Origin: Lepus europaeus
Taxonomy: Eukaryota; Chordata; Mammalia; Lagomorpha; Leporidae
Direction of reading: 5' to 3'
Length of the DNA stretch: 64,000 bases
Assembly: GCF_033115175.1 (NCBI RefSeq)
Contig: NC_084844.1
Span: forward strand, 77,256,531 to 77,320,530
This document shows, in pieces, positions 1 to 30,200 of this stretch. The position numbers and the translations under genes were made by a program. The notes below the pieces were generated by a model, which searched no databases, was not told the origin of the DNA, and saw only the letters and a program-made list of their open reading frames with translations. Numbering within the stretch: the first letter of the stretch is position 1; each line of letters opens with the position of its first letter.

Positions 1-693
1 CACCGCCCACACATGTGTGGGAAATGCTCCCCAGACACTTCACAGCCTTGAAAAGGAGACAGGAAGTTCTGTGGACACCAAAGACAGTTGTGGAAGTGTC
101 CAAGTGTCCAGGGAAAAACAAGGCTCTGGTGTAGGAGGCTGCATAGTCATGCCCCTAGGGAATACACCCTCACCCTTCCTAAGCCCTAACCACCCACCCC
201 CAGCAGGCCCTCCCTGAACCTTACACATCATGTGTATGATATTTCACGCTACTGAAAAACATAAATTGATTCAAAAAGAACTCCAGCTTATCAGCTGGCA
301 GGTTTAAGTAAAAGGTGCATATGCATTACCCTGGGTCTGCAGGCCCCTCTTTCCAGTGTGTGCACATGTGGGCCTATCTACGTAGGGAAGCAGAGTATGA
401 GCAGGGGTTGGCTGTACCAGGATAAACAGTCAGTGTTTCAAATACAAAACTGGTTTTTAATAACCTCAAATTCAGTCATAAAACTTCCAGTCTAAACAAG
501 GGAAACACATATATATGCACACACTGCTGACAAACCTCCAAAGCTAACTGCTTATTTAGGAGTTCACCACTGCATATAATTAGGCCATTTCTCTGTATCT
601 TGCAAAAAATATCTTATTTATATGAAGAAAACTTAATTTTGGCAACCTGCACAAGTGATTTGTATCCTACTACTTTGCTGATTTGAACACTTC

Positions 694-1025
694 TTTAAGA
701 AAAGATTTTATTTATTTGAAAGGCAGAGTTACAGAGAAAGCGAGAAGGAAAAACAGGGAGAGATTTTCCAACCACTGGTTCACTCCCCAAATGTCCACAA
801 TGGCCAGGGCAGGGCCAGAACAAAGGCAGGAGCCAAAGGCTTCCTCCAGGTCTCTTACATGGGTGCAGGGACCCATGCACTTGGACCACACTCTGCTGCT
901 TTCCCAAGGTACGTTAGCACAGAGCTGGCTTGGAAGAGGAGCAGCCAGGACCACAACTGGTGCCCATAAGGGAATATCAGCACTGCAGGTGGTGGCTTAT
1001 ACCACTATGCAGCAGCACTGGCCCC
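694..1025 (-). mobile_element. Lagomorph SINE (CSINE), full length
   Basis: Complement of the C repeat: AAAGATTTTATTTATTTGAAAGGCAGAG at the 3' end, and a decayed tRNA-like head ending CACTGGCCCC. It splits duplication blocks A and B; the right arm has no SINE here, and about 100 bases beyond both sides still align. Confidence 0.9.
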
Positions 1026-2685
1026 TCATCTGAGCACTTTTTAATCTCTCCTGTTGCCTCCTCAAACTCCCTGCCCCTCATTCCCAGCCCACATCACTGA
1101 TCCCTCTGTTGCTGCAGCTCTCTCCCCCTTTGGAAGCACTCTTAAAGATAGTCACCCAATTATGTAAGAATTGTCTCTTAATTCAAATGGTTCCGTGAAG
1201 AGGGAATGAATGGCATCTAATGGAAATACCCAGGCTTTGTAATGTCCCTTAAATATCTTGTTTTCATAAAAAAGACCATAAAGATTCTGATACATGTTGG
1301 CATATAACAAGAGCCAAAAAGCTGCTACTGACTTTGTCTAGTGCCTCCCCTGTCCTTTCCTGCAGAAAAACCATTTATTTTCCAAACATTCAAAATCAAA
1401 AACACCAACACTACCCCTATAACTCTGCGAAGGCTGCTCCGGCACACGAGGAAAGAAAGTGAACAAGGAACACAAACCCAGGTGACAGCATCCTCCTCAC
1501 TTTGCACTTCTGTTTCTGGTTAAAGGTCGGTCACAAGGGAAGCTGGATACCGCAGTTGTTCCAGTTACCTCCAATCATAGGCAGCCTGTGTGGGCAGCAG
1601 AACACAGAGCACTCCATAAGAAAGGGACATTTGGAACAGAAGAGGAAAGAATGCTAATTTACATGCACCCAAATTGAAACTGAAACAAAGAACTTTTCCC
1701 ACTCCTCTGGTCAGAATCTCAATTTCCAGGTCAAAATTCCCCTATACTTTCAGAGGCAGACCCCTTGGATTTTCTTCCACGTAGGTGTATTCCTGTGTGA
1801 GGGATGCATCTTCGTGGGGGATGGCACCACCACACAACGCAAACCAGAGAGGACACAGTTATGCTTTTGGCACTCTGAGGAGACTGGATATCCACATCCA
1901 TCAGTTCTGACTTGGCTAAAAAGCTTTCTGCTATTCTGGGAATCTGATATCAATTTGGGCTAAAAAGACAGAAACACAGAGAGAAGCTGGATCTGCTAGG
2001 TGAGCAGAAAGGAATCTCGATCTCCAGTTGGTGTTGTGTTGAATATTACTCTGAGAGGCTTTCACTTTCCACCTATATTTGCAGAAATAAGTGGACAGTA
2101 TCAGTCACATCCTAACACAGGGCAGCTTCAGCCAGAGGACGGATTACACTAGTCTTGATCACTTACATATCCCTCAAAAAATGGCAACCAAAACAATGAC
2201 AAGAAGCAGAATCAAAAACACACAGAAGTCAACAGAAAGGGAAACAGTGACGGGGAGCCACAGCCAAAGTGACAGAGTATCGAGAACAATTGTGATGTCC
2301 CTCAGCAACCGTTTGCCTTAAGTAGGAAGTCTCCAGCTTAAGATACAGACATAAAAGACACAGACACTCACGACATATTTCAAAACCGAAGATGAGAGGT
2401 TTGCATGGTAGGTTGATCTTATGACGACTTTTATTGAAAAGGTATGTTGTATCAGGCAGATGCCTTTAGATCAGCAGAGTTAATCCAATGCCTAATTCAA
2501 GGAGACAGCCTGAGGAAGCAGGGCTGCCAGGAGAGCTGCAATGTCTCTATAACTCATCCCAGCATCATGAAGAGAAGAGAAAAAGGGGTTCTCAGGTTGG
2601 TGGTTATAAAGAGAATGGGAACACAAAAATTTGAGAAGAGGGGAGAGCAAAGCTCAGATATAGTTTTCTTAGTAAAATAAATTGA

Positions 2686-3021
2686 GGGACTGGCGCTGTG
2701 GCATAGTGAGTAAAGCCGCCGCCTGCAGTGCCAGCATCCCACATGGGTGTCAGTTCGAGACCCAGCTGCTCCACTTCCGATCCAGCTCTCCGCTATGGCC
2801 TGGGAGAGCAGTGGAAGATGGCCCAAATCCTTGGGCCCCTGCACCCGCATGGGAGACCCAGAAGAAGTTCCTGGCTCATGGCTTTGGATCAGCAAAGCTC
2901 CGGCCGTTGCCGCCAACTGGGGAGTGAACGAACGGATGGAAGATTTCTCTCTCTCTTTCTGCCTCCCCTTTTCTTTGTAACTCTTTCAAATAAATAAATA
3001 AATAAATCTTTCCAAAAAATG
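2686..3021 (+). mobile_element. CSINE, full length with target-site duplication
   Basis: Head GGGACTGGCGCTGTGGCATAG, B-box GTTCGAGACC, CT tract, and AATAAATAAATAAATC tail. Flanked by AAAATAAATTGA at 2674-2685 and 3022-3033. Confidence 0.95.
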
Positions 3022-3033
3022 AAAATAAATTGA

Positions 3034-4035
3034 AGTAGATCTCAGAACAAAATGTGGAATGCAAAAACACCCTCATTTCATAAATTCTCATCAGGCTTGA
3101 AGAAAACGGCCCTGTCTACCCACAGTCCAATCATTTCAAAACAGTTATTTCCTGATTAAAATTGAGCAGATTTTGGAGCTCCGCACTGCTAGTCTCCAAA
3201 TGCTAAATACAAGTTTAGTTCCCAATGTGGGTGGGGGTAGCCAGAGCCTAACTGGGCACTTTGACAACATGAGAAAAGCCAATTCATAAATAGGAATAAT
3301 AGTTGTGAACATGAAATATGGAACAGTCACACAGAACAATTATGTCTGGTCCTCAAAGTGAGCCCCAGGATTAGCACACAGCAAAAGTATTAACTCACAA
3401 GAAGTCACTTTTCCAGCCTTGTAGTGACAAGGAAACAAAACAAACCCCAAATGTTTTATGGAGAATGGTGACAATTTTGTCCTCTGAAAAATCAGCCTGA
3501 TGTGACCAAGGGCTCAGAGTTGTGAAAATAGAAAAACCTGCAGTCTACCGGGTATGATTCGATGGAAAAGCTAGAAAATAGTACAAAGGCCAGGCAACAT
3601 GAGGAAAGCAAAGAAATGAGGGATGCTGAATTTCTTTATCCCTTCTGCCCCATGAATTACCTAGGAACCTCACTGCTAATGCAGTGGCACTCACTCCAGT
3701 GCAGGACTGTACCGCTCTTCACTCCACAATCCCGACAATGAGCTAAACACATCTTGGGGAGAATGGCAGCACTGAGGCCAATGTGTCTTTGGCCACCTTT
3801 AAAAAAATATTTCCTACAAGAACTATCAATGCCCATTAATGAAACAAGTGAATGTCAGCACTCCACAGCTATTGGGACAGACAGTGTTGGCCCTTCCAGT
3901 GACCAGTATACACAATGCCACCAACACGTTGAACATGACAGCTAGGCAGAGCTTACTGGAGGGAAAGGAGGGTTCAAAGTGAAGTACTTACATCTGTCAT
4001 CCCATCCTCTGAGGCAGATGAGAATTCTTCATCAG
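3034..4035. other. No recognised gene or repeat
   Basis: About 1 kb inside the left arm with no open frame of note and no repeat that I recognise. It has no visible counterpart in the right arm, so it was either inserted on the left or lost on the right. Confidence 0.5.
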
Positions 4036-4044
4036 AAATGAGGC

Positions 4045-4363
4045 TACCGTGGCTGGCACTTTGGTGTAGTGGGTAAAGCCGCCACCTGCAGTGCCAACAT
4101 CGTATGTGGGTGCCAGTTCGAGTCTTGGCTTCTCCTCTGCTGATCCAGCTCTCTGCTACGGCTTAGGAAAGCAGCAGAAAATGGCTCATGTACTTAGGCT
4201 GCTGTACCTGCATGGGAGACCAGAAGAAGCTTCTGGCTCCTGACTTCAGATCAATCCAACTGTGGCCATTTGGGGAGCGAACCAGTGGATGGAAGATCTT
4301 TCTCTCTGTCTCTCCCTCTATCTGTAACTCCACCTTTCAAATAAATAAATAAAATTCTTAAAA
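4045..4363 (+). mobile_element. CSINE, full length with target-site duplication
   Basis: Head GTGGCTGGCACTTTGGTGTAG, CAGTTCGAGTC B-box, AAATAAATAAATAAAATTC tail. Flanked by AAATGAGGC at 4036-4044 and 4364-4372. Confidence 0.92.
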
Positions 4364-4947
4364 AAATGAGGCCAGAGAGCAAGAATCTTCTCAGTGTCAT
4401 CACATTAAATGAACAGAGGGAGCTAAACAGCAGCCATGACCCCAAGTAATTTCCCTGGCCATTGCCCCTCAGAAGTGCCTGTGGAGGACTCTGTGTCATG
4501 GCTGTTCTTAAGTGGAAAGGCTGGCATAAAAGTTGCCTGATGGCTCTTCTGGTCCTCAGTGGAAGATAAGGGATGGAGAGATCTCTCACTGCCTCTAGGA
4601 TGCAGCATACTGACTGCAGTGCGATATAAATTTCAGTGAGCAAACTGAAGGCAGGGGCGTAGTAAGAAAGGCAGGAAACCACAATTGCCAAAAGTACATG
4701 GCACCCCACCTTGCTGATGGTATACAGAAGGAAAGGCATAGGAGTCACTGGTGAATGGAGTACACATACCCTGTCTACCAAGATAGAGACACCAAAGGCT
4801 CATGGCTGCTGCCAAGGGCTGGAAGCAGCAGAGCTGAGCTTGGCCATGGGTACCAAAGCCATCAGGGCTGGGGATGCTAAGGGTTGGGAAGATAGGACAA
4901 GTTGTCCATCTGGAAAATACCCAGTGTAAGCCCACCACAGTCTTTTT

Positions 4948-5277
4948 TCTTTTTCTTTTTTTTTAAAGATTTTTTTATTTATTTGACAGGCAGAGTTACA
5001 GAGAGAGGTAGAGACAGAGAAAGAGGTCTTCCATCTGCTGGTTCACTCCCTAGAAGGCTGCAATGGCCGGAGCTGCACCGATCTGAAGCCAGGAGCTTCT
5101 CCTGGATCTCCCACGTGGGTGCAGGGGACCAAGGATTTGGGCCATCTTCTACTGTTAACCCAGGCCACAGCAGAGAGCTGGATCAGAAGTAGAGAAGCCG
5201 GGACTAGAACTGGCACCCACATGGGATGCCGGCATTTCAGGCCAGGGCATCAACCCACTGAGCCACAGTGCTGGCCT
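4948..5277 (-). mobile_element. CSINE with 16-base target-site duplication
   Basis: Complement orientation. Flanked by CCACCACAGTCTTTTT at 4932-4947 and 5278-5293. It interrupts duplication block D; the right arm has the empty site near 26468 (AAAGACTGTGGTGGG), a direct view of the pre-insertion state. Confidence 0.95.
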
Positions 5278-5419
5278 CCACCACAGTCTTTTTCGATGAC
5301 CTGTGTCACATAAGAAGCAGTCATCCCAGGGAGACAGGCTGAGTGGCACCTTGGATCAAGGCAGTGAATATTCCTGGGGCATCATCCCCTTTGCAGAGTA
5401 GCAGAAACAGCAAAGGGAA

Positions 5420-6220
5420 AAGTGGAAGGGAGTGGGGGAAGAAAGGGGAACTGAAGTGACTGTGATGCCATCTTTCTGGCTTACAGTTGCTCAGATAAGA
5501 AACAGCACAGGCTTTAGGAGCCAGTGGGCAGCAGCAGCAGACCATCCTCACTCAGGAAAATCAATTTATTGTGATCTACACAGGGCTGACTTGGGATGGT
5601 ACACGTTCCAGGAGGAATGTGCCTGAGCCAAGCAAAGAAAAAGAAATTACATAACCATCAAATTCCCTGGGAAATGGGCTTTGCAAGGCCAAGCCACCTA
5701 GAATAGGTAGGGGGTGAGGGGTCTTTATTTTAAAGAAGTACCACTCATGGCAGGCCTGATATTCAGAGAACAGCTGTGAAATTCTCCCACATATGCATCC
5801 TCTCATCTCCCCCAACAAGGCCCCACATCATGAACATCCAGATAGGGAGCATCTGTGTGTGTGAGTCAACACAAATTGTGCTCATGGATACCACACACAC
5901 ACAGACATAAACATTCATCTGCATATGCCACCTGATTTTCAGAAACAAGTTCTAGGTGACCAACAGCAGCAACATTAGTTTTGATGCACAGACCTCTCTC
6001 AACACACAGGATTCCCGTTTCTCTATTCTGAGGAGGAATAGACTTTTCAACAAAATTCCTGGAATATCTGACACTGAAAGACATAATGGGTGTCTTCAGC
6101 ATGTGTTCTCTGGAAGTGCCTGTCTTCCAGATGATTGGTACTTGCAGTTACTAATTCACTCACTCTGTACAAAGATCTGTAATTTGCCTTCAGTTTGCCA
6201 TTAATATTTTGCAGAGGTGG
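5420..6220. other. No recognised gene or repeat
   Basis: Left-arm sequence continuing from block D; a short CACACACACA run lies at about 5893. Nothing else identified. Confidence 0.5.
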
Positions 6221-6224
6221 GTAC

Positions 6225-6480
6225 CATTATTTTGTCAAGGGCCATTTGAATATTTAAAACATCACTCAAATACCATAAAAAATGGTCAACTTAAAAGTCC
6301 AATTGATCTATTGAATATTGAGTCTTGCCTGTGATTGCTTTGGTGGGGCCAGACCAAATTGATTTCATGTACCTTATATGGCACATAGGCTGTATATTCC
6401 CCATAATTTATTTAGAACAAAATTCAATATAATCTCTGACTTCTTTTGCTCTGCATATTGTCCTAGCATGAATACCCAAT
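6225..6480. mobile_element. Unclassified old interspersed repeat relic
   Basis: GTCAAGGGCCATTTGAATATTTAAAACATCA and later ATGTACCTTATATGGCACATAGGCTG have the look of an old dispersed mammalian repeat, perhaps a DNA transposon. I cannot place the family. Confidence 0.25.
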
Positions 6481-6521
6481 AAAGGTCCCTGGAACCAACT
6501 GGAATTAGAAATAAGCCTCTT

Positions 6522-6843
6522 GGGGCCAGTGCTGTGGCATAGAAGGGAAAGCTGCTGCCAGCAGTGCCAGCATCCCATACGGGTGCTGGTTCAAGTCCCG
6601 ACTGCTCCACTTCTGATCCAGCTCTCTGCTATAGCCTGGGAAAGCAGTAGAAGATGGTCCAAGTCCAAGTCCATATAGGAGACCAAAGGAGCTCCAGGCT
6701 CCTGGCTTCAGATCAGTGCAGCTCTCGCTGTTGCGGCCAATTGGGGAGTGAACCAGCAGATGGAAGACCTCTCTCTCTCTCTCTGCCTCTCCTTCTCCCT
6801 CTGTGTAACTCTGATTTTCAAATAAATAAATAAATCTTTAAAA
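6522..6843 (+). mobile_element. CSINE, full length
   Basis: GGGGCCAGTGCTGTGGCATAG head, GGTTCAAGTCC B-box, AAATAAATAAATAAATC tail. A near-repeat AAATAAGC(C)T occurs on both sides. Confidence 0.92.
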
Positions 6844-6926
6844 CAAATAAGCTTGTTTCCATCTCCCTTGTAAATTCAGATTGTACACTTTCATAGCCAC
6901 TAATTCAATTTCAAAATGTCTATTGA

Positions 6927-7063
6927 GGGGCTGACATTGTAGTACAGCAGATTAAGTTGCTGCCTGCAATGCCAGCAACACATATTAGCACCAGTTTGAG
7001 ACCTGGCTATACTACTTCCAACCCAGCTCATTGATAATTTACCTGGGAAAACAGCGGAAGATG
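6927..7063 (+). mobile_element. CSINE, 3'-truncated and diverged
   Basis: GGGGCTGACATTGTAGTACAG head and body up to GAAAACAGCGGAAGATGA; the 3' half is missing. Confidence 0.8.
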
Positions 7064-7567
7064 ACCCTGTAATGAACACCATGAGACTCCTTCCTCATTT
7101 GGTCCTTTCCTTAAATGTATCATTGCTAAATTACCAGATCATGTGTATCATATTTCTAAAAAAAAAATCTCTCTTCCAATTTTTAAGTAACTTGCCTGCA
7201 AACTTATAGCAGTACAGGGAAAGACAGCCAGTTAGCCTATCAAGTGTGGGAATCCTGTTTTTTGGCTGTTTCCCAGTCAGATAAATGGTCACACTACATG
7301 GTTGCTCAGAAAATGGGCTAATAGCTGTCTTCGGGGTGTGAAGTGGCTCTTAACAGCAGAAATCTGTAACTGCTTGTCTGCCACAAGCACTATGATAGGA
7401 AGCATGCCAGATCAGAGGATGAAAATTAACATACTGGGGTTGAGAGGAGGAACGCTGCCACCTTATCACCCTCTACTACCTAAGATTGACTTCCTATTTT
7501 TACTTCCTAGATGACCTCACTATGGTGAATGAGTAACCTGGTGATAGCACCAAGCACCCTAAAAGAA

Positions 7568-7573
7568 CACGTG
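7568..7573. promoter_or_regulatory. Conserved CACGTG E-box, left arm
   Basis: The palindromic E-box CACGTG sits in AACACGTGAAT; the right arm has the same 11-base context in inverted orientation at 25502-25507. Conservation between arms is the only support. Confidence 0.3.
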
Positions 7574-7940
7574 AATCAATAAAACCTGGTTATTCATGTG
7601 TTAACTTCACCATACTCAAAGCCAGCAATATTTTTTGGCCACATCTTTTACTCACTGAATGAGCATCTGGGGTGGGGGAGATCACCTTTTTTTTCCCCCC
7701 TTTTCTTTCTCACGCTCCCTCTCAGTAAGAAGTTGTGTAGAGGCTTCTACAGATCACAATCATTCTGCAAAGTTAACATGCTCCCAGTGTCAACAATGTT
7801 ATGAGCTTACATACAGAACTAAAATAATAAATAAAGTAACTGGCTCTCTTAATTAAGATAACCAGTTGGGTGGAGCAGTTAGAACCAGCAAAGGCAAAGT
7901 GTTAGTTTTCTGCCTGTATGATTTTGTAGTTCAGCACTTC

Positions 7941-7948
7941 ATGCAAAT
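7941..7948 (-). promoter_or_regulatory. Conserved octamer in intron 1, left arm
   Basis: ATTTGCAT on the minus strand, with its conserved flanks. It is the counterpart of the octamer at 24736-24743. The downstream shared words GTAACAGTTGACA and GAAAAGCAGCCAAATAAATC are also nearly intact in both arms. Confidence 0.35.
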
Positions 7949-8466
7949 CCAGGTGAAAATTATTCCAATTATTGTCCTAAGCAGTAGACTTGCATTCACT
8001 TCACTTCTCACGTCTTTGCAAAGGGATCAGGAGCAAGTAATAACAGTTGACAACTCTGCTAAAAGGAAAAGAAAGAAGGGGTGATGAGAGAAATTGAAAA
8101 GCAGCCAAATAAATCATCAGCTACCTTACCCCAGCCTCAGAACAACTCCAGATTGCAAAAGGTCTCTGTGAACTAAACACAGAGGAGGGAATAATTTGCA
8201 AAGCCACTGCACACCCTGCGTGCTGCTGCCACAAGAGCTATCCAGTGTTCCCCATGTGCCATTGGTGTGTGGGGAGGGCGGGGTAGATCCTCATCTGATC
8301 CTCCTTCCCCCTCCTGCCTGCCATCTCAGGCCTCTCTCTACTGAGGGCCATGGGTGGGGGGTGCTGCTTTCCATGGTCCCAGGACTTGTTGCTCAGTATA
8401 GAAATAGACAAGTTCGAGAGAGCGTACAAGAGTGAAAGCAATTTTATTTGTAATTAGAGTCCATGT

Positions 8467-8806
8467 GGGGCCAGCGCTGTGGTGCAGTGGGTTAACACCC
8501 TGGCCTGAAGTGCCAGCATCCGCTGTGGGCGCTGGTTCAAGACCTGGCTGCTCCACTTCCGATCCAGCTCTCTGCTGTGGCCTGGGAAAGCAGTAGAAGA
8601 TAGCCCAAGTCCTTGGACCCCTGCACCCACGAGGGAGACTGAAGAAGCTCCTGGCTCCTGGCTTCGGATCTGCCCAGCTCTGGCCATTGTGGCCAATTGG
8701 GGAGTGAACCATCAGATGAAAGACCTCTCTCTCTCTCTGCCTCTCCTCTCTCTGTTATTCGAACTCTGAGTTCGAATAAATAAATCTTTAAGAAAAAAAA
8801 AAAAAA
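8467..8806 (+). mobile_element. CSINE, full length
   Basis: GGGGCCAGCGCTGTGGTGCAG head, CTCTCT tract, AATAAATAAATC tail followed by 17 A. It lies inside intron 1 of the left paralogue, antisense to it. Confidence 0.93.
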
Positions 8807-9572
8807 AGAGCCCCCGTAAAGGGGAGGAGCCCCAGCTCTGGGAATCCTTAATCCTTATTCTTTCTCTGCCCTTATCTGTGACATACTGGTCCCTCACCTC
8901 CTACATGCTATAGGCATGTATTTGGATTGGCTGCCTCGCCAGTATCCATCAGTGCAGCGAGGGGTCCATAACTGGTTCCCCGTCACCTCTCTGTGCGGAA
9001 GCATCAGTAGTTGGTTATTATTTCCCATATCCTTAACTCAAGTGCCATATCGCCCCTCTTCCTCCCTTGGGTCTATTCTAAATTGTTCTCCTACATTTTT
9101 CCCCCCCCACGGGGTGGAATTTTTCCAAAGTCCTCTCTTTTCACGCCAACTCTGCCTCAGGCGCCGTCTTTGGCTACACACCCAGCCAGGTCCGGGGACT
9201 CTGCGGGTTACACCACGCAGCTTGGCCAGCGGGGATGCACCTGACCGGCCCAAAGTGGGATCGGGCTTACTAAAACATGAAGGACGGGACGCCATCCACC
9301 TTTCTCCTTCGCTGTCCACTCGCCTGCCTGCTCCTCCAGTTCCCTTGTGACATTTTCCGCCTGGTACTCCCCAAATAAAACACATTAAGGAAAGTTTGAG
9401 GCAGCGCTCAGGGCCGGTGCTCACTGGAAGGCGGCGATGGGAAACGCCGACAGCCTTGGGGGCGGGTGCACCCGGATCATAGAAAGCGCGCCCAGAAAGT
9501 GAGCCGCCAGCCACCCTCGTACCCGCCCCGTCCCCAAACACAGGCACCCACGCCCCTTCGGGGTCTCCCTAC

Positions 9573-9990
9573 CTGCCGTGGACATTTCCTGGGGGCTGGG
9601 CCGCTCCCTTCAGGACACGCCGAGGGCCAGGCGGAGAGTGCGTGGCCCGGGGGACCAGCGGCGGCAGCAGCCAAAGCCTGGGGGGTGAGGGTGGGGCAGG
9701 CCGGGGTGTGCGCTTGCAACCTGCCTGGGATGGCACGTGCCGTGCCCGACGCCGGTGACTGCGGGGAGGGAGCCGCGCTGCCCCCGCCGGGCGCTGAAGA
9801 ATGCGCCGCCAGCACACGGCCCGCCCGCGCCCGCGCCCGCCCGCGCTCGCCCACACACGCCCCCGCCCGCCCACGCTCGCCCGCGCTCGCCCGCGCCCGC
9901 CCACGCCCGCCCACGCTCGCCCGCGCCCGCCCGCGCCTTCCTGCGCTCCCCACTCGGGCACTCGGAGCCCCAGTACGTTAGGAAAGCTAG
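9573..9990 (-). other. Predicted 5' exon 1 of the left paralogue
   Basis: The 3' boundary is the donor on the minus strand: the exon ends at 9573 with CGGCAG, followed by GTAGGG. The same CGGCAG/GTA junction occurs at the equivalent place in the right arm, which is the main support. The 5' limit is a guess, set just downstream of the ZNF143-like site at 9993-10009, because such sites often sit close to transcription starts. The exon would include the cytosine-rich minisatellite at 9822-9942, so it may in fact start downstream of it. No coding sequence is claimed; it is probably 5' untranslated. Confidence 0.45.
9822..9942. repeat. GC-rich minisatellite in the left CpG island
   Basis: About 120 bases consist of degenerate tandem units of the type CCCGCCCACGCTCG and CCGCGCCCG. 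The tract sits between the ZNF143-like site and the GCAAGCGCACA block, where the right arm instead has an alternating TG/CG tract (23680-23725). It makes spurious long open frames rich in Ala, Arg, Pro and Gly on both strands. Confidence 0.85.
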
Positions 9991-9992
9991 GG

Positions 9993-10009
9993 ACTCTGGG
10001 AAATGCAGT
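9993..10009 (-). promoter_or_regulatory. ZNF143-like site, left promoter
   Basis: On the minus strand the site reads ACTGCATTTCCCAGAGT. It resembles the ACTACAnTTCCCAG element bound by ZNF143 in vertebrate CpG promoters, with a deviation at the fourth base. It is conserved with the right arm at 23624-23640 (one difference in 17). Function is inferred from motif and conservation only. Confidence 0.5.
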
Positions 10010-10105
10010 CCTGACCCGGGGCATGCCTAGGGAGCAGACCTGCCGGACCTGCCCGAGGGCCTCAAAGCCTCTGACCGGCGCGGACAGGAGGAAAATTCTG
10101 TGCTT

Positions 10106-10114
10106 TTGTTTACA
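10106..10114 (-). promoter_or_regulatory. Forkhead-type site, left promoter
   Basis: On the minus strand it reads TGTAAACAA, a consensus forkhead site, about 100 bases upstream of the ZNF143-like site. The same nine bases stand at the equivalent place in the right arm (23529-23537). Confidence 0.45.
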
Positions 10115-10335
10115 AGCCGCCTCCCCTTCCCCCCACTGAAAACACTGCTCTCAAGGAGCAGTTGGTGCTCTTCCGTTCTCGAACCAACACGTAAGAGGGA
10201 CTCCCACTCCTGCTAACCCCCAAATCCTGGCTTCTTCCTAAACTCTGCCTTCTTCCAGAAAAAATCTTACCTGCTGCTTTGTTCCTGGAAGCCCTCTTGG
10301 GGTTTTTACCTATAAGAATGAAAAATAAATGAGCG

Positions 10336-10625
10336 TGGGACCGAGGCGGTGGCATCGTGGATTAAGCATCTGTCTCCGGCTCAAGTCCCTGCTGCTCCGC
10401 ATCTGATCCAGCTCTCTGCTATGGCCTGGGAAAACAATATAAGATGGCCCGAGTGCTTGGGATCCTGTGCCTGCCTGAGAGCCCCAGCAAAAGCTCCTGG
10501 CTCCTGGCTTCAGATCAGCCAAGCTGCAGCCATTTGGGGAGTGAACTGGCAGATGGAAGGTCTCTCTCTATCTCCCCCCCCCACTCTGCCTCTCAAGTAC
10601 ATAAATGAAATCTTTAAATAAATAA
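10336..10625 (+). mobile_element. CSINE with a deletion in the head
   Basis: GGACCGAGGCGGTGGCATCGTGG start, about 35 bases missing before CTCAAGTCC, then standard body and AAATAAATAAATAC tail. It lies immediately beyond the promoter block. Confidence 0.88.
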
Positions 10626-10824
10626 ATACATGACTATGAACACAGTATAATTTTTAGAGGGCTTCAGAGGGCATAGCTTGGCGTTAAGCACATGAGAATT
10701 TTTATTGGTGTCTCATTGGTGTTTGCAGTTCTTTTCAAATCATTTTACATCATTCTTCCATTCACCAAGTATAGAAAGATAAACAAAGGAATTGAATAGA
10801 AAGCTAACATTCCTGAGGGGCAAA

Positions 10825-19370: not shown

Positions 19371-19379
19371 CCTAGACAG

Positions 19380-19680: not shown

Positions 19681-19856
19681 GGTGCGTTGCTAAAGAGTGA
19701 AGCACCCTTGAATTTCCTCTTCAGCTTGCTCATCAGTTTTTATCTGTCCCTATCTCAGCTTCAAGCTCAGCCTTCTGGGGTTTTCCTAACACTCATCAGG
19801 TTTCCTCATTCACCTTGGCCTCTATGGAATGGTTTTCCTTTCCCTCCCCTCCCCAC

Positions 19857-19919
19857 CCCTTCCCTTCCCTTCCCTTCCCTTCCCTTCCCTTCCCTTCCCT
19901 TCCCTTCTCTTCCCTTCCC
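19857..19919. repeat. (TTCCC)n pentanucleotide repeat
   Basis: About twelve tandem TTCCC units with one CTTCTC variant near the right end. One strand is purely pyrimidine. Confidence 0.95.
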
Positions 19920-19924
19920 ACCAG

Positions 19925-21640
19925 GTCCCTTGTTTCCCAACTCACCTATAAACTGCTGCCTCTGATTCCACTGATTGCCTTTGCTTCCCTGGGCTTCCTT
20001 TTCATCTGTAGCAATGCAGATGCTCCCAGGCCTACAATCTATATCAGCTTTCAGCATAAAGGATTTTATATCAGCTTTAATACATTGTTCTTTCTGATGC
20101 TAGGCTGCAACTTGCTCCTGTAAAATTACCAGTTTCTAACAATGTTACTCCAAAGGCCTTGGTTTTGCTCCATGAGTGCATCATGGATGCTGGCCTTGAA
20201 TGCCTTGATATTCTATTCTTACAGTTCCATGACAGCTGTGAGTATGGTGATCTCCTAGATGTCAAGATTTCTGCCTACATATTACATTCAGTTAGGGGTC
20301 ATAGAGCTCCAAAGCACTGTTGTTAGAGCCATTCCATGTATTCACTGTGCACATCTACTGAGTTTATCTTCTCTTTGTGCCCAACTACTCCCATCAGAGT
20401 AGCCAAGATAGAGGGGGTTTATTTAAGAGTCATGATGCTGAACCAGAAGCAGGCTCCATCATATGTACTCTATGATGTCTATTTCAGATATTCTTGGACA
20501 CTTTTACTTATTTCCTGCTTCATTGAGTTTTAGGTAGCTGAGGTTGGTGGACACATGAACTGTGAATTAGTGAGGAATAACATATTCAACTTTGCATTTT
20601 ATAATTTTGTAGGTTTTTGAATTTAATATTTTATTTATATTGATCCTATAGAGGATGATTATTCTAGTTTCTAAGTAACTGCATTATAATGAGGATCAGT
20701 GCATATGCTAGTAAAGATGACTTGATCATTGACGTAGTGCTTATGTGCTGCATGCATCCATGAACTTGTGTCCTGGACTTTTGGGGATTTTATGTTGATC
20801 AGAGGAAGCCTTTTACCACTGATGAACATTAATGTGCTAACATCTTGTTCCGTAAACAATAAAATTCTACTTAGGATTTACCTAGGAGTTTCCTTCTGCC
20901 TACCGCAGTAAAATGCCAAAATCCTATTGATTCTACTTTTAGATCTCACTGTGATGTATCCCCTTGTCTCCATTCCCACTGTCTCGTAACCTTGCTTCCT
21001 GCTCTTCTATATCTCAACTAAATTTCCTTTAATAGACTTCAGAGTTGACCTCTGTGCTTCTTGTCTTTCTTATCTCTGGGGCCAAAGCCTTTGGCTTATA
21101 TCTTGCTCCTCAATCTCTCTTACTTCAATTTCTAGGGAAAGCAAGTGGCTGGTAGTTCTTTCATCACACCACACAAAATACTGCTCAATAAATTTTGGTT
21201 AAATAAATGAATGAATCATCTTATACAGCTAGGGTTATTGTGAACTATGTGGGGATCTAAAAATACCTATTCTAGGCTCTTGCCTCTTTCCTAGAGAAGC
21301 ATTCTAAGCACAGGTACAGATACAACAAAATGACAGTTTATATAAAAGGTGAGGTAATCACACACACATCTGGGTTATATTCAGGAATAGATTGGTCTGG
21401 GAAGGAAAAAGATGAGATATTTCAGTACCCTGCTCCTCTATGTCAGCAGGGAGAGAGAAAGCATGCCTCTCCCTGTTCTGGGTCTATTACGAGGTTGGAA
21501 AAGGGGAGTGGTTACACAGGACCAATATCAGAGGAGGTGCATCCTAGGGAAGGAGTCATTTAATTGACAGGTGTGTCAATAGGATTATATGAGGGAAGTA
21601 TTGCTTCCAGCTTGTGGTCCTAATCTAGCTACTTGTCTTA
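19925..21640. other. Spacer sequence up to the right arm
   Basis: Single-copy-looking sequence with one L2 end at 21165. No gene found. Confidence 0.45.
21165..21225 (+). mobile_element. L2 3' terminus
   Basis: CTGCTCAATAAATTTTGGTTAAATAAATGAATGAATC matches the terminal part of L2 on the plus strand. Confidence 0.5.
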
Positions 21641-21803
21641 TCCCATATCAGGGTGACAATTCAACCTGAGTGGTCCTGGATGGTTTCTCTTCACACGTTT
21701 CTTCCCTGTGTAAATACTAATATACTCTTTTTATGATTAAACTTTTCTTAGAACAATTCATTGTGTAACTACCTAATTCTGGCAGTTATCAAATATATTT
21801 CTT

Positions 21804-22716
21804 TTTTATTATTAAACTTTTATTTAATGAATATAAATTTTCAAAGTACAGCTTATGGGTTACAATGGCTTCTCCCCTCCCAAAACTTCCCTCCCACCCA
21901 CAACCCTCCCCTTTCCCGCTCCCTCTCCCCTTCCAATCACATCAAGATTCATTTTCAATTCTCTTTATATACAGAAGACCAGTTTAGTATATATTAGGTA
22001 AAGATTTCAACAGTTTGCCCCCATATAGCAACACAAAGTGAAAAAAATACTGTTGGAGTACTAGTTATAGCATTAAATAAGAGTGTACAGCACATTAAAG
22101 ACAGAGATCCTACATAATATTTTTTTAAAAAATTAATTAATTTTCTATGCCATTTCCAATTTAACACCAGGTTTTTTTTTTTTCATTTCCAATTATCTTT
22201 ATATACAGAAGATCGATTCAGTATATATTAAGTAAAGATCTCATCAGTTTGTACCCACGCAGAAACACAAAGTGTAAAAATACTGTTTCAGTACTAGTTA
22301 TAGCATCACTGCACATTAGACAACACATTAAGGACAGATCCCACATGGGATGTAAGTACACAGTGACTCCTGTTGCTGACTTAACAATTTGACACTCCTG
22401 TTCATGGCGTCAGTAATCTCCCTAGGCTCTAGTCATGAGTTGTCAGGGCTATGGAAGCCTTTAGAGTTCGCTGACTTTGATCTTATTCCGATAGGATCAT
22501 AGTCAAAGTGGAAGTTCTCTCCTCCCTTTGGAGAAAGGTACTTCCTTCTTTGATGGCCCCGTTCTTTCCACTGGGATCTCACTCACAGAGATCTTTCATT
22601 TAGGTCTTCTTTTTTTTTTTTTTCTTTTCCATGGTATCTTGGCTTTCCATGCCTACAATACTCTCATGGGCTCTTCAGCCAGATCCGAATGCCTTAAGGG
22701 CTGATTCTGAGGCCAG
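21804..22716 (-). mobile_element. 5'-truncated L1, 3' UTR only
   Basis: A minus-strand L1 3' end that begins at the left with the complement of an A-rich tail. It contains the purine-rich (here cytosine-rich) tract typical of L1 3' UTRs. Direct repeats GTTATCAAATATATTTCT flank it (about 21786-21803 and 22717-22736). It matches the 3' part of the L1 at 59590-60290. An internal segment of about 150-190 bases is present twice in tandem (about 21955-22115 and 22186-22330). It splits block H/I of the right duplication arm and is absent from the left arm. Confidence 0.85.
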
Positions 22717-22799
22717 AGTGTTATCAAATATATTTCTAACTCTTTTTGCCTTTACTAAATAGTGAGCTCTTGGGGGACAGAGATTTTTTTTTTGTTCAC

Positions 22800-22925
22800 T
22801 GTTTATACTCTCATTTATTTGTTCAACTAACTGACTCTGTCAGGTGCTGAGGTTATGTCAAATAAAGCAAACTTGGTTCTTGACCTCATGAAGTTTACAA
22901 TCTTGCAGGAAAGAGCAATCTAGCC
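22800..22925 (-). mobile_element. L2 relic, right arm
   Basis: The plus strand reads TCATTTATTTGTTCAAC, CAGGTGCTGAGGTTATG and TTCTTGACCTCATGAAG, the complement of an L2 3' end. It is the counterpart of 11395-11475. Confidence 0.5.
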
Positions 22926-23201
22926 CAAGAATATTACCTACATATAAATACTAGTGGGAAGTGAGTGGACAAAGATTTACACATTCCTAATCAAGCAACT
23001 CCAATACCATAAACTGTAAAAGACAGAAGCAGTCATAAACACAGAGCTCCACATGATCCCGTTAATCATGTACTTAATGAGTTTCTACATAAAAATTTTA
23101 AAATACAAATAGCACATATATACCTAAGAATTCATACTATTTAGGTAGTACCATGAATTAAGCATATGAAAAAAGTGACCACGTAATAAGAACAGGGCTA
23201 G

Positions 23202-23256
23202 AATTTTTTTTAAAAGATTTATTCATTTGAAAGAGTTACACACAGAGAGAAATCTA
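23202..23256 (-). mobile_element. CSINE 3' fragment
   Basis: AAAAGATTTATTCATTTGAAAGAGTTACACACAGAGAGAAAT only, just upstream of the right promoter and absent from the equivalent left-arm position. Confidence 0.75.
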
Positions 23257-23528
23257 AATGCTAAACTATGCCCTCTGCAATCCCCCTAAAAGTTATAGGG
23301 AATTCACACCCACTCATTATTTGGTTCTTACGGGCAAAAGCACAGAGAAGCCCGCCAGGAACAAAGCAGAGGGTACGATTTTTCAGAAAGAAGTTTAGGA
23401 AGCTTAGGAAGAAGCCAGGATTTGGCAGTCAGCTAGTAATGGAGGTGTCAAAGATTTTGGCACAAGCCAGAAAAAAGAGCACCTACCAATCTCTGAGATT
23501 TTTTTCCATGGGGGAAGTGAGGAGTGGG

Positions 23529-23537
23529 TGTAAACAA
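23529..23537 (+). promoter_or_regulatory. Forkhead-type site, right promoter
   Basis: TGTAAACAA, identical to the element at the equivalent place in the left arm (10106-10114, minus strand). The surrounding sequence has diverged more than the site, which is the reason to list it. Confidence 0.45.
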
Positions 23538-23623
23538 GGACAAATGCCTTCTAGTTTCCACCTGCCTCTACCTGCCGCAGGCTTTGAAGCCCCTGGGAGG
23601 CTCTCTGGCAACCCTGGGTCTGG

Positions 23624-23640
23624 ACTCCATTTCCCAGAGT
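23624..23640 (+). promoter_or_regulatory. ZNF143-like site, right promoter
   Basis: ACTCCATTTCCCAGAGT, followed by TCCTAG. It resembles the ZNF143 promoter element and is shared with the left promoter. It suggests a transcription start shortly downstream. Confidence 0.5.
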
Positions 23641-23649
23641 TCCTAGGAG

Positions 23650-23998
23650 TCCCAGCGCATTCCGCACGCCGAGCGCCTCTGTGTGCGCGCGCGCGTGTGG
23701 ATGTGCGCATGCGTGTGCGCGGGGGCGGCTCCGAGTTCCGGGACGGCGGAGGCTCATTCACCGATCGGAGCCGGCGCTGGGAGGCGGCGCACCCCTTCTC
23801 CCGCGTCCGGGTCCCTGGCCAGCTCCCTGCAATCCCAGGCAGTTGCAAGCGCACAGCCCGGGCCAGCCCGCCCGTGGCTTCCGCTTCCGCTGCCGCCTGT
23901 GCCAGCCCCGCGCGCCTCGCGGTTTTCCTGCCGCGCTCGCCGCCTGGAGCCCGGTGTCCGAAGCCCGCGGCGGAGCGCCCCGGGAGCATCCCCGGCAG
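23650..23998 (+). other. Predicted 5' exon 1 of the right paralogue
   Basis: The 3' end is placed at the donor: exon end CCCCGGCAG, intron start GTACGG at 23999. The matching left-arm junction supports it. The 5' end is approximate, just downstream of the ZNF143-like site. Nothing in it is convincingly coding, so it is taken as 5' untranslated sequence. If the candidate exon at 56735 belongs to the same transcript, intron 1 would be about 32.7 kb. Confidence 0.5.
23680..23725. repeat. Alternating TG/CG tract in the right promoter
   Basis: TGTGTGCGCGCGCGCGTGTGG-like sequence followed by further TG/CG dinucleotides. It alternates purine and pyrimidine and sits where the left arm has its minisatellite. 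Confidence 0.75.
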
Positions 23999-24735
23999 GT
24001 ACGGCGCCCGGGAGGGGGCGAGGGGCGTGCGCGCGGGAGAGGGCTGGGCGCGAGGGCGGCCGGCGCCCGGGGCCCTCGGCTCACTTTCTGGCTGCGCCTC
24101 CGAGGTCCGGGCTGGGGAGGGGGCTGTCGCGTCTCGGACAGCCGCCTCCCGGGCCCAGCGCTCCGCCACCGCTCGCAAACTTCTGCTTGCGGTTTGTTTA
24201 GGGGCGTCAGCGGGTGGGCCTCAGCGCGGGACGGCACAGGTAGGGCAGGCGGGAGCACCGCGAAGGAGGGCAGCGCGACTCCTGTTCTCCACATTGTAGC
24301 CAGCTGCGTTGCCGTTGGGTCGGTGGCGAGAGTGCCCTCGGGGCTGGTGGCCCTGAGCGGGGAGCCCGAGGCGGCTGCAGGGGTGGGGAAGGAGCACCCG
24401 GGGGTGTCTGGCCCGCCGCGCCCACAGTCGCCCCCGCGGACACTGCGGGCAGCTAGGGCCTTGCCTCTCCGGCCTTTTCCCAGCGCGAGCAGCGTGGAGG
24501 GTGTGCAGTGGCTTTGTGGATTGATGCCGCCTCCACGTCGAGTTCACAAAGACTTTGCCGTCTCGAGTTTGAGGCTGTGGAAAAGTAGCTGATTTATTTG
24601 GCTGCTTTTCGGTGTCTGTTTTCAGCCCTTCTCCTTTTAACGGGGATGTCAACTGTTACTCTACGGATCCCTTTACAAAGTGAGAAGTGAACTGCAAGTC
24701 TCCTACTGTGGTTAACTGGAGCTGTTTTTGTCTGG

Positions 24736-24743
24736 ATTTGCAT
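24736..24743 (+). promoter_or_regulatory. Conserved octamer in intron 1, right arm
   Basis: ATTTGCAT (POU/Oct octamer) lies within a well-conserved block of about 25 bases also present in the left arm at 7941-7948 in inverted orientation. The block also shares GCACTTCATGCAAATCCAG-type flanks. Regulatory use is inferred from conservation between the arms. Confidence 0.35.
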
Positions 24744-24902
24744 GAAGTGCTAAGCTATAAAAACATCCAGGCAAAAAAGTCACGCTTTTCTCTCTGCCTA
24801 TTTCTTTATGGATGGTTATCATACAATTCATAATTTTTTATTCAAGAAGGTCACCTTTTTTTTTTTTTTATTTTGGGTTTTGTGTTTAAGACCATGCCAT
24901 TT

Positions 24903-25253
24903 AAAAAAATTTTTTATTTATTTATTTTTTGACAGGCAGAGTGGACAGTGAGAGGGATAGGGAGAAAGGTCTTCCTTTACCGTTGGTTCACCCTCCATTG
25001 GCCTCTATGGCCAGCGTGCTGCGGTTGGCGCACCGCGCTGATCCAAAGCCAGGAGCCAGGTGCTTCTCCTGGTCTCCCATGGGGTGCAGGGCCCAAGCAC
25101 TTGGGCCATCCTCCACTGCACTCCCAGGCCACAGCAGAGAGCTGGCCTGGAAGAGGGGCAACCGGGACAGAATCCGGCGCCCTGACCGGGACTAGAACCC
25201 GGTGTGCGGCGCTGCAAGGCAGAGGATTAGCCTATTGAGCCGCGGCGCTGGCC
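24903..25253 (-). mobile_element. Young-type CSINE with 15-base target-site duplication
   Basis: TTTGACAGGCAGAGTGGACAGTGAGAG at the 3' side and AACCGGGACAGAATCCGGCGCC, GAGCCGCGGCGCTGGCC at the head are marks of the younger subfamily. Flanked by AAGACCATGCCATTT at 24888-24902 and 25254-25268. It lies in intron 1 of the right paralogue. Confidence 0.95.
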
Positions 25254-25501
25254 AAGACCATGCCATTTTTGACATTGGGAGCGTATTAGCTGTAGATTTT
25301 CATGACTATTATTTGTTGAAGCCTCTGAACAAGTTATTAGTGTGTGGGGGAGAATAAGAAAAATAAAAGTAAAAAAGTGCTGCCCTCCCGGCAAAAGATA
25401 GTTCCACACAATAGAGTAAAAGAAATGTGGCCTTGAAAAATATTCCCGTCTTTTTTTCAGTGTGATGAAGTTTTCATGTGAATAACCAGGTTTGAGTAAT
25501 T

Positions 25502-25507
25502 CACGTG
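25502..25507. promoter_or_regulatory. Conserved CACGTG E-box, right arm
   Basis: The palindromic CACGTG in ATTCACGTGTT matches the left-arm E-box at 7568-7573, followed in both arms by an AACCTGGTTATTCA word (read on the left-arm plus strand). Confidence 0.3.
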
Positions 25508-25937
25508 TTCTGGTAGAGTGTTTCCTGCTGGTACTGGATTAATAATTTATGAGACTCATTTAACCCGAGGCCATCCAGGAAGCAGTCACATAAAGTGAAT
25601 CGTGGGTAGGTGGAATTTTAGGATGGCAGCATTCCTGCTTTCATCCCGAATGTGTTTTTCCTTTCCTCATATAGTGCTTGTTGATGGGAAAGCAGTTATG
25701 TATTTCTGATGTGAAGAGCTGCTTCCACCCTCAATATAGTTGTATGCTGACTTTCTGAGCAAATGTGTCGTGTGACCATTCATCTAACTTGGAAGCAGCT
25801 AAGAACAGGATTCCTAGACCTGTCAGACTGATCGACTGTGTTTGGCAGATCTTTCCCTATACTAGTATAAGTTGGCAGGCAAGTTACTTAACATTTGGAA
25901 GAGAAAACTTTTTTAATGTGAGATGCATAATGTGGGT

Positions 25938-26338
25938 GTTGCAGGAATTTTGTGGATCAGATCCAGATGGGTGTCTGTGCAGCAGAGAAGATTGATGAGA
26001 CCAGATGCAATGCTGAAGAGGTGTGAAGCCTTAGGAAGCAGACAGTAGGAAAGTCTCCTGCAGTGGGAGGGGCTGGTGGAGAGACCAGCTGAGGGGGACT
26101 TGCTTAAATGCCTTGTGTTCTACAGGCAGACAGTGCTGAAGCTGGTTTGTTCTGCCGTGATGGCTGTTGTTGCTGGGCAGGGTAGCTAAGGTCAGGATTG
26201 CAAAGAAGGGACTTTTGGGCAGAATTTTTGTGGTTAGGCTAGTTGGAAATGAGCACATCTGGCCCCTCAGTGTTGGGAACCACATCCTATTTGAACAGTC
26301 TGACCTTGCAGACAAGAGCTGGTGAGATGGTGGGGGCT
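25938..26338 (+). mobile_element. Solo-LTR-like repeat, right-arm copy
   Basis: Second copy of the repeat at 11533-12002. It begins TGTTGCAGGAATTTTGTGG and ends near GCAGACAAGAGCTGG. The duplicated sequence is intact up to 25930 and resumes near 26345, so this is an insertion specific to the right arm. Confidence 0.55.
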
Positions 26339-26797
26339 CTGGACTGTCTGCTACTCTGCAAAGGGGATGACTCCCCAGGAATATTCACTGCCTTGATCCA
26401 AGGTGCCACTAAGCCTGTCTCCCTGGGATGACTGCTGCTTATGTGACACTGGCCATTGAAAAAGACTGTGGTGGGCTTACACTGGGTATTTTCCAGATGG
26501 ACAACTTGTCCTATCTTCCCAACCCTTAGCATCCCCAGCCCTGATGGCTTTGGTACCATGGCCAAGCTCAGCTCTGGTGCTTCTAGCCCTTGGCAGCAGC
26601 CATGAGCCTTTGGTGTCCTCTATCTTGGTAGACAGGGTATGTGTACTCCATTCACCAGCGGCTCCTACACTTTTCCCTCTGTATACCATTAGTAAGGTGG
26701 GGTGCCAGGCTCCTTTGAAGTTGTGACTTCTGCTGTCCTTTCTACACCTTTGTCCTCAGTTACTCCCTCAAATCTAGATCGTACTGCAGTCAGTATG

Positions 26798-26967
26798 CCA
26801 AGAGCTTCTTCTGGGTCTCCCATGTGGGTGCAGGGGTCCAGGCACTTGGGCCATCTTCTAACAGGAAGCTGGATCAAAAGAGTAGCAGCTGAATCTTGAA
26901 CCAGCATCCATATGGAATGCTGGTACTGCAGGTAGAGGCTTAACCTGCTGTGCCACAGCCCTGGCCT
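26798..26967 (-). mobile_element. CSINE, 3'-truncated
   Basis: Begins inside the body at CCAAGAGCTTCTTCTGGG and continues to the head GTGCCACAGCCCTGGCC. It follows duplication block D directly. Confidence 0.85.
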
Positions 26968-26969
26968 CA

Positions 26970-27287
26970 GTATTTCTTATTTTATTTGAGATGCAGAGTT
27001 AGAGGGAGACACAGAGAGATGGGGATCTTTCATTTACTGAGTCACTCCCCAAATTGCTGTAATGAATGGGGCTGGGACAGGGCAAACCCAGGAGCCTGTA
27101 CCTCCATCTGGGTCTCCCATGTGGGTTCAGGGGCCCAAGTACTTGGGCCATCTTCTGCTGCTTCCCCAGGTGCGTTAGCAGGAAGTTGGATAAGAAGTGT
27201 AGTAGCTGTGATTCAAACTGGCACTCATATGGGATGCTGGCATCTTAGGTGGTGGAAGCTTAACTCACTGTGCCACAGTGCCAGCTC
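26970..27287 (-). mobile_element. CSINE, old full-length copy
   Basis: TTATTTTATTTGAGATGCAGAG ... GTGCCACAGTGCCAGCTC. It sits head-to-tail behind the truncated copy at 26798. Confidence 0.87.
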
Positions 27288-30200
27288 TTCCTCTTCCTGT
27301 GTGTTGACTTGTGTGTCAACATAGCTTCTTGAAGATACCTGCTGATCAGATCTTGGCCTTGTGTTGGGCTGCTCTATTTTGTTTTGATTGTCATTTGTTG
27401 AGTGATATATAAGTATTCAAAGCTAGCTATAATCTGACTGGTGGCTGAAGCTTCTCTGGGTTAGGGTGCAACTGATTCTATCTTTTCCTGTCTCCAAATA
27501 CAGGTGGAAAATGAAATCTTCTTAAGCCTAATATGCTGCAAAGTAACAACTGGAGATTGAGATTCCTTTCTTGTTACCTAACAGATCCAGCTGGTCTCTG
27601 TATATGTCTTTTTAGCCCACACATATAGCAGACTCCTAGAGTTGGACAAAGCTTGTTAGCCCAGTCGGAACTGACAGATGTGAATATCCATTCCCCTTGG
27701 AGTGTCAGAGCCATACCTCTGCTGTTCTGGTTTGCATTGTATGATGGTACATCCCTCATGGAGACAGATCCCTTACACAGGAATACAACTTCATGGAGAA
27801 AAATTCAATGAGTCTCTCTCCAAAAGTGACATGAAATTCTAACTGGAAAATCATGCGATTGTCATCAGCAGGTTGGGGAGCCTCCTTTGTTTCAAGTTGA
27901 GTGCTATATGAATGGGCACCCTTTCCTCTTCTGATTGATATATTCCAACCCTTATGGATTACTTACGGAGTACTCAGCGCTCTCCTTTTGCACACACAAG
28001 GAGCCTTTGTGGGTATCTGTGAATGGGGATGTTTGTGAATTAGCAGTGTCTGGTGTTGCCTTTGTGACCATCTCTAACTAACCGTAAACCAAGGGGCAAA
28101 GTGAGGAGGAGACTGTCACCCTGTAGCCAGCCTGGATTTGTGCCTCTTGCTCCTTATCTTTCCCTCGTGCTGGAGCAGCCTTCACAGAGCTGTATTGCAT
28201 AGCACTGGTACTTTTGATTTTGAGTGGAAAATGAGATAAATCATTTTTCTTTAGGAAAGGATTGAGCGTGGCACTAGACAAAGTTGGCAGCAATTTTTTT
28301 TTGATCCCTGTCATATGCTGATAATTGTCAGAATATTTAGAGTCTGTTTTATGTAAATACATATTTAAAGGACATTGGAAAGCCTGATTATTCCCATTAA
28401 TTGCCATTCAGGCACTCTGTGCAGAGCTATTTTCAGCTGAGTAACATTTCTTATGTAATCAAGTGACCATCTACAAGACTGCTTCCAGAGAGAGATTCAG
28501 GGGTAGAGGGGGCAGTGATGTGGGGTGGAGGTGGGGGGAGAGGGAGAATGGGGAGGCCAGAAGAGAGGTTAGAATGTGTTCAAATGAGCAAGGTGATCTG
28601 ACACAGATCATTTGTGCAGATTGCCAAAATTAACCATGTATATTTTAGGTTTTTTTAATTTTTAAAATTTAGAGTCAACTTCTAATACAGTTTCTGATAT
28701 AGCTGATCCACTTTTCAGTTTCCTTCATATAAATAAGAAGTTTTTGTGAGATATAGATAAGTGGTATAATTAAATTCAATGGGGAACTGCTAAATAAGCA
28801 GTTAGCTTTCGAGTTTTGTTGGCAGTTGAGAGAGAAGTGAGTATGGGGATGTGTGTATAACCCTTGCTTAGATCAGTTTTATAACTGAATTTGAGATCAT
28901 TAAAATCAGTTTTATAATTGAAACATTGACTTTTTTATTGCTGCAGCCACCCCCGCTCACGCTGTACATCCTTACATATAAAGACCCACACATATGCACG
29001 TTGAAAACAGCGCTTGCAGACCTGGAGTAATGCACATGCACTTTGATTCATCCTGGGGACTGATAGGGTGGAGTTCTTTGTGACTTTATTTGTGTGTTTC
29101 AATAGAATGAAATATAGCAACTTGTATAAAATATCCTGTATCCCAGGAGATGACTCCAGTTGGCTTGCCTGTCTGTCCACCTGGTGTTACAGGTGATTGC
29201 CATGGCAGGTGTTGGGCTGTATGGAAACACAGAAGTCTCTACAGACATGGGCCATCCCTCTGTTCTGACTGCCCAGACCTAGCACTGTTCTTGTTTCGCT
29301 ACTCCTAGGTTCTCCCTGAGCCACTTTTCTCCTCTCCCTCTCCAGGGAACACAGAATTCTATAGTGTGTGTGTGGTGTTGTCATTTCTGGTTGTTCACTC
29401 TCAGCACAGTCACGGAGACCCCTTTTCGTGCTGCTGGGTTTGTTTTGTGGTGGAGAAATGTGTGCATGACTAACGGGGCAGACTCATCCCTGCAGAGCCA
29501 TCTGACTTAGCCTGGCTTGGCCGTGCTTGTGCAGGCTGTTGGCTGGACTCTGACAGGTGCTGTGCTCTGCCATCCTGGCTACTTCTGCCCTCTTGGCAAT
29601 TGTCATGCAGAAGTGATCTTGGCTACCACTTGGTAACAGATGCCTGCTAATGTAGTTGTGCCAGGCAGAAGGTTGGCTGGAAATTGAGCGTTTGCAGGGA
29701 GAGGGATAAGAGGAGCCTGGACCAACTGGCAGAGGTGAGGCCTCAGAGGGGCACCAAAGCTTGCCTGCCAACCCTCTTCCCCCCAGCATCTGCCCCTAAT
29801 GAGGCTTGCAAGGGCTTTCATGGTGTTGGTGACCTCACTGCTTCTCTGCAGGACACAGAGCAGAGAGTTCCATACCTGGAAACAGGGGTAGCAGGGGCCG
29901 TGCCCCTCACGTCGTGCTTCCCTGCTCCATGAGGTCATCCTAAAGACTCAGTCCTGGGCTGATTTCCTATCTGTCTTTTAAGCAGAAGGTGGTAGATAGT
30001 GATGGGAAGTAGAGTGTGACAACTAGTGAGCTGGAGGACAGACCACAGGGCCTTAAAGTGAGAAAAAACTGTGGTATATTTTTATGAAAGACGTAGCTTA
30101 GCTTTGGTGCAGCCATGGATATCAGGTCGCAGTAGTTGACCACAGTGTAGGTTGACCAGAGCAGATCAACTGCTGAGCTAGCTTTACAATCTTTGTCGCT

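Follow-up and report, generated by a model that had tools for sequence, protein, structure and literature searches.

The two arms, their promoter regions and the flanking exons

The 64,000-nucleotide stretch of Lepus europaeus DNA analysed here (C22:77256531-77320530, hereafter the window, in a searched genome of 2.93 Gb) contains two long, diverged arms lying in inverted orientation to each other, each with a CpG-rich promoter region, which are considered below in relation to the clusters formed by KRAB zinc-finger protein (KZFP) genes. All coordinates are window positions, negative values lying to the left of the window start and those above 64 kb to the right of its end. Once repeats matched at least three times in the window had been masked (in effect a masking of short interspersed elements, SINEs), self-BLAST at E ≤ 0.001 returned 17 minus-strand rows, 13 of which join 15-12290 with 21095-30888; 12 of these 13 stand in strict inverted order, the remaining one being an alternative GC-rich alignment within the CpG-island block. 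Comparison of the left arm with the right arm alone gave 13 minus rows and one plus row. No matches were obtained with the reversed left arm or with 50 Markov resamples of it, and seven overlapping 10.5-kb pieces from elsewhere in the window gave none in four cases and a single match in three.

The plus row (11514-11931 with 25920-26331, 62%) is in direct orientation, contrary to the inverted order; both arms probably carry an old repeat there.

When 100 kb of the same genome was added on each side, giving a joined sequence of 264 kb, inverted matches between the arms were found to extend rightwards to 53497 and leftwards to -16584 (30641-34507 on the right, for example, pairs with 233 to -3494 on the left), with one flank row, 49474-49765 with -11648 to -11359, breaking the order. 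In total the inverted order spans about 29 kb of the left arm and about 32 kb of the right. Within the window the left arm (1-12290, minus strand, its homology continuing to about -16.6 kb) and the right arm (21095-53497, plus strand) each comprise a promoter region followed by what is presumably the first intron of a KZFP-family copy, the left copy being directed leftwards and the right one rightwards, with a spacer of 8.8 kb (12291-21094) between them; masked self-BLAST reported no inverted homology between the two halves of the spacer. Direct copies adjoin the inverted pair, 47.6-58.0 kb matching 81.2-90.5 kb and 47.6-57.2 kb matching -81.2 to -75.7 kb.

Most of the arms are only 61-74% identical by BLAST, the best block, at 88-95%, being exceptional. 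Over nine of the 11 aligned blocks, the two containing the tract described below being excluded, 980 differences were counted at 4258 non-CpG sites, corresponding to a Kimura two-parameter (K2P) distance of 0.277, and with the tract included the median identity of 60-column windows was 0.67 (261 windows).

An initial annotation of this DNA, made from the window alone, fares well in its outline. It had described non-coding segments lying inverted and in order, which the 12 strictly ordered blocks and the controls with no or one match bear out, the masked alignment being more than a set of SINE matches. It had also taken the left arm to be cut by the window, and the homology does run on to about -16.6 kb in the added flank. 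Its measurements need revision: the blocks are real but are not limited to 1-12.2 and 21.6-29.4 kb, reaching 53.5 kb and about -16.6 kb; the spacer is present but measures about 8.8 kb between the masked inner ends (12290 and 21095) and not about 9.5 kb; and an identity of four in five applies to a few blocks, not to most.

Its claim of two related promoter regions also stands, there being one CpG island per arm, at about 8.9-10.5 kb on the left and 23.2-24.9 kb on the right, each with a conserved splice donor. The left promoter block (9224-10337, minus strand) carries a TTTCCCAG motif at 10011-9987 and a splice donor GT at 9572-9571, and the right one (23305-24344, plus strand) the same motif at 23622-23646 and the donor GT at 23999-24000. 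Aligned outwards, both blocks keep the motif GGACT.CATTTCCCAGAGT.CCTAG, which in our view resembles a ZNF143 site, and both arms keep the donor CGGCAG|GTA about 415 bp (left) or 350 bp (right) past it. The CpG region and donor therefore occupy an equal relative place in both arms and point outwards, and because of this arrangement of motif and donor the promoters are read as lying head to head and the outer blocks as first introns; a first exon and transcription at the two islands are accordingly predictions from sequence. A GC-rich tandem repeat with periods of 10, 30 and 40 bp occurs at 9819-9937 in the left island, none being listed for the right.

Exons typical of the family lie outside the arms. 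On the right, a KRAB exon on the plus strand at about 119.36 kb (C22:77375847) scores 77.8 bits against a Pfam cut-off of 20.4, and 29 matches to C2H2 finger or linker patterns fall within an open frame at 127336-128956 on the same strand. On the left, the KRAB region has its inverted counterpart at -27.1 to -26.2 kb, where a relic of the exon survives in the inverted place with 74% DNA identity and deletions; no cluster of three or more finger/linker matches was found on the minus strand of this left copy. Another KRAB relic, on the plus strand, is located at about -66.3 kb.

The remaining features are of less consequence. In the Pfam scan of translated window frames (X at stops), which covered frame 1 of the plus strand throughout, its other two frames beyond position 10000, and the minus strand as far as 25.0 kb, only UQ_con was matched, corresponding to a UBE2R2 retrocopy in the spacer (15059-15630, plus strand) that is matched in more than one frame. 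A search of the PDB with the three plus frames of 24001-54002 gave nothing at E ≤ 0.1, and Rfam gave no matches over the whole window. ARAGORN called tRNA-Phe at 8473-8556 and 54728-54811, both inside repeat segments matching a C-type SINE, and these two are probably not genes. About 1 kb of the right arm (21693-22724) has no counterpart in the left arm and is a younger dispersed repeat, with copies of 85-96% identity at 74.1, 106.1 and 161.0 kb and others in the left flank. Between -61.5 and -47.7 kb the left flank contains direct copies, 93-97% identical and 5-9 kb apart (such as -55310 to -53619 with -49388 to -47694), which are a recent tandem duplication or a young repeat.

Relatives elsewhere in the genome and the origin of the arms

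Genome searches, in which the best 40 candidates were scored for each promoter or intron query and the query's own copy was counted, listed at least 43 rows for the left promoter, at least 45 for the right promoter and at least 46 for the intron block. A query with 26000-27000 gave at least 44 rows, 28 of them matches outside the window to the intronic tract described in the next section and the others being the window itself, SINEs or other parts. The annotation's inverted duplication thus holds as inverted homology but not as a single isolated two-copy event, since the sequences recur across the genome and the flanks contain KRAB exons and a finger array. Such abundance would also suit two copies of a mobile element, a reading that we regard as very improbable, as both arms carry a CpG region and a conserved splice donor, the homology continues to KRAB exons, and no transposon or retroviral Pfam domain occurs in the frames scanned.

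The relationship between the arms was addressed with unrooted maximum-likelihood trees of three arm blocks: intron (8 rows), promoter (9) and tract (7). The 1.2-kb intron block, at 1029-2239 on the left (minus strand) and 27338-28584 on the right (plus strand), was recovered by self-BLAST and is the best resolved of the three. In its tree the left arm is sister to a copy on contig C38 with support of 100/100, a clade of left and right costs 67 log units (p-AU, approximately unbiased test, 5.85e-5), and path lengths are 0.39 between left and right and 0.25 between left and C38. Given the rejection of this clade in the intron block, a closest kinship of the two arms along their full length is rejected on these alignments.

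As the trees are unrooted, both arms could nevertheless stem from a single local inverted duplication, with the copies on C38 and C6 being seeded later from the left lineage; the event proposed in the annotation would then be the founding step. Such an event agrees with the inverted order, which covers about 29 and 32 kb with one row out of place, as does the intron tree in placing the right arm, C6, the left arm and C38 together on one side of a branch (100/99), and the C38 copy looks partial: in the 8.7 kb upstream of it the tract is absent, and the right CpG region has just a weak match there, reversed and of 56%. Other observations tell against it. Contig C6 holds a promoter at 35.977 Mb, a tract at 35.984 Mb and an intron block at 35.987 Mb, which is the order of parts in the right arm and implies that the unit is older than the local pair. 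The right promoter query scores 221 bits with C6 and 73 and 58 bits with the left arm, and with the left promoter query the right arm was absent among the matches listed. To these may be added the clade of left and right, rejected in the intron block and left without resolution by the promoter tree, and the direct copies adjoining the inverted pair. An origin by one local duplication is therefore regarded as possible but doubtful, and repeated segmental duplication and inversion within the KZFP family is the preferred source of both arms.

A search of the genome for KRAB exons, in which the best 150 of 681 candidates were scored, placed matches near some of the copies (C24 at 12.82 and 12.88 Mb; C21 at 82.76-82.99 Mb), and two tract copies on C24 are followed, 46 and 53 kb downstream, by a KRAB match on their own strand. 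Separately, nine KRAB matches on C13 (94.6-102.1 Mb) and 4/5 on C223 (7.4-8.7 Mb), spaced 0.3-1.2 Mb apart, have an equal score of 83.2 bits, which suggests long recent tandem arrays.

With regard to age, a SINE at 691-1028, which we take to be of a lagomorph-specific type, lies with its second target-site copy (691-1039) in the left arm only, the right arm having the empty site, so the arms separated before its insertion. It is 20.5% diverged from the consensus of its copies (40/195), in agreement with the old date proposed initially. The arm K2P distance of 0.277 amounts to 0.14 for each arm, which is lower than this, the aligned blocks being the best-kept parts of the arms and the consensus perhaps not being the source of this SINE. 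Two further markers were set aside: the right-arm SINE at 24915-25253, whose end branch in a tree measures 0.008, gives no sign of being old, and target-site duplications are too weak to serve as a clock.

The near-identical intronic tract

One piece of the presumed introns departs from the general divergence. It is about 320 bp long, about 97% identical between the arms and uninterrupted on the right (26348-26666, plus strand), the left copy (4740-5404, minus strand) consisting of two parts, 4740-4947 and 5294-5404, with a SINE between them. Over 319 positions 11 substitutions and two indels separate the copies, which share one identical run of 99 bp, and the 126 bp adjoining the tract hold 29 differences and three indels. 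The intervening C-type SINE, which with its second target-site copy occupies 4948-5293, has a perfect 16-bp target-site duplication and occurs in the left tract only, the right arm having the empty site; it is 10.8% from the consensus of its copies (22/203), with near-private differences at 7/203.

Among the 28 matches to the tract outside the window, six cover at least 260 bp at 72-78% and 22 cover about 160-190 bp at 78-83%. The tract tree, from which the 22 shorter ones were left out, includes five other copies, whose identity to either arm over the full tract is 72-75%, and it unites left and right at 100/99 with a path of 0.098, against 0.29-0.36 to the other five. In view of these matches, an isolated duplication of two copies whose intronic tract is under strong constraint was set aside as an explanation. 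Searches with tract patterns in collections of viral contigs and genome contigs gave no matches, and no account of the locus appeared among the literature matches listed.

The tract is best read as having been homogenised between the arms by gene conversion, which is favoured over conservation across the family because the five other members are only 72-75% identical to the arms, a level much like that in the intron block. A different explanation, which we think unlikely, would be that each copy is under strong purifying selection, as in an enhancer or an exon. In its favour, after SINE masking the tract is the only piece common to the arms between 2239-7122 on the left and 25948-27338 on the right, the SINE in the left copy appears older than the tract divergence, and a 171-bp part is 78-83% identical at the 22 places with shorter matches. 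Against it, the similarity of the whole tract in the five other members is much that of the intron block, frame-shifting indels separate the two copies, RNA folding gave nothing out of the ordinary (z 0.72 and -0.60), and no Rfam family scored above chance. An Rfam match to HOTTIP_2 reached 9.8 bits against a cut-off of 80 and is due to chance.

A more specific proposition, that long-diverging inverted paralogs exchanged an intron patch of about 320 bp with the SINE lying within it on one side only, is judged quite improbable. Were the SINE older than the exchange, conversion would have acted on either side of the insertion without the SINE being copied or lost.

Interpretation and comparison with known systems

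Taken together, the arms are best regarded, with a probability of roughly 0.8, as belonging to two old members of a KZFP cluster that stand head to head, each arm representing a promoter and first intron; these members would have arisen by repeated duplication and inversion and later acquired a conversion patch. Under this reading the outer blocks of both arms would be introns, the right promoter would drive the exons at 119-129 kb that encode KRAB and the fingers, the patch of about 320 bp would have been homogenised between the arms long after their separation, and the SINE would then have inserted into its left copy. The locus as a whole is read as a KZFP cluster that is related to members of other clusters, and its history looks like ordinary cluster evolution.

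Several observations weigh against parts of this reading. Among the window frames scanned, Pfam detected no KRAB or finger exon, and for the finger array at 127.3-129.0 kb Pfam reports no zf-C2H2, only a sub-threshold DUF7484. The right promoter, at 24 kb, is 95 kb from the KRAB exon, another CpG-rich stretch occurs at 82.0-83.0 kb, and the promoter and exon may belong to different units. Near the copies on C6, C38, C9 and C12 no KRAB row was found among the best 150 of 681 candidates, and the promoter tree leaves the left, right and C6 copies unresolved (66/68). As to conversion, tract part 26347-26519 is 78-83% like 22 further places and so is somewhat better kept across the family; moreover, the 11 differences in the tract are below expectation for a conversion preceding the SINE (P 0.009), even when the SINE's divergence is taken as 7/203. 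A SINE older-looking than the tract divergence constitutes a tension, graded as mild because its source copy may have carried differences of its own.

A CpG-island first exon, KRAB exons, a C2H2 array, diverged copies in both orientations and decayed members make up a layout typical of KZFP clusters, and the present locus shares it, the first exon being predicted here. It differs in that the nearest exons are far from the promoters (about 95 kb on the right and about 36 kb on the left), and in that on the left the KRAB exon is broken and no finger array was found. An example of a KRAB zinc-finger gene cluster is that at human 8q24.3 (PMC2865497). A striking two-copy inverted repeat within one window can thus turn out to be one part of a gene family that extends far beyond it, and the naming of a duplication event needs a genome-wide search and block-by-block trees first.

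The human Y palindrome P6 has arms 99.97% alike over 110 kb, according to PMC3723533, which also puts the typical length of mammalian conversion tracts between a few tens of bp and 1 kb. The locus resembles P6 in having inverted arms able to exchange sequence by gene conversion and differs from it in that most blocks are 61-74% alike with a single near-identical tract; with a median identity of 0.67 in the 261 windows, the arms are not near-identical along their length, contrary to an actively converting palindrome of the type found in the male-specific region of the Y (MSY). The tract is the locus's one point of modest interest, a near-identical patch in low-identity arms offering a small case in which ectopic conversion between paralogs of long standing can be tested. 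As a local exchange between neighbouring paralogs it would be like the conversion events in gene clusters that PMC3161012 treats.

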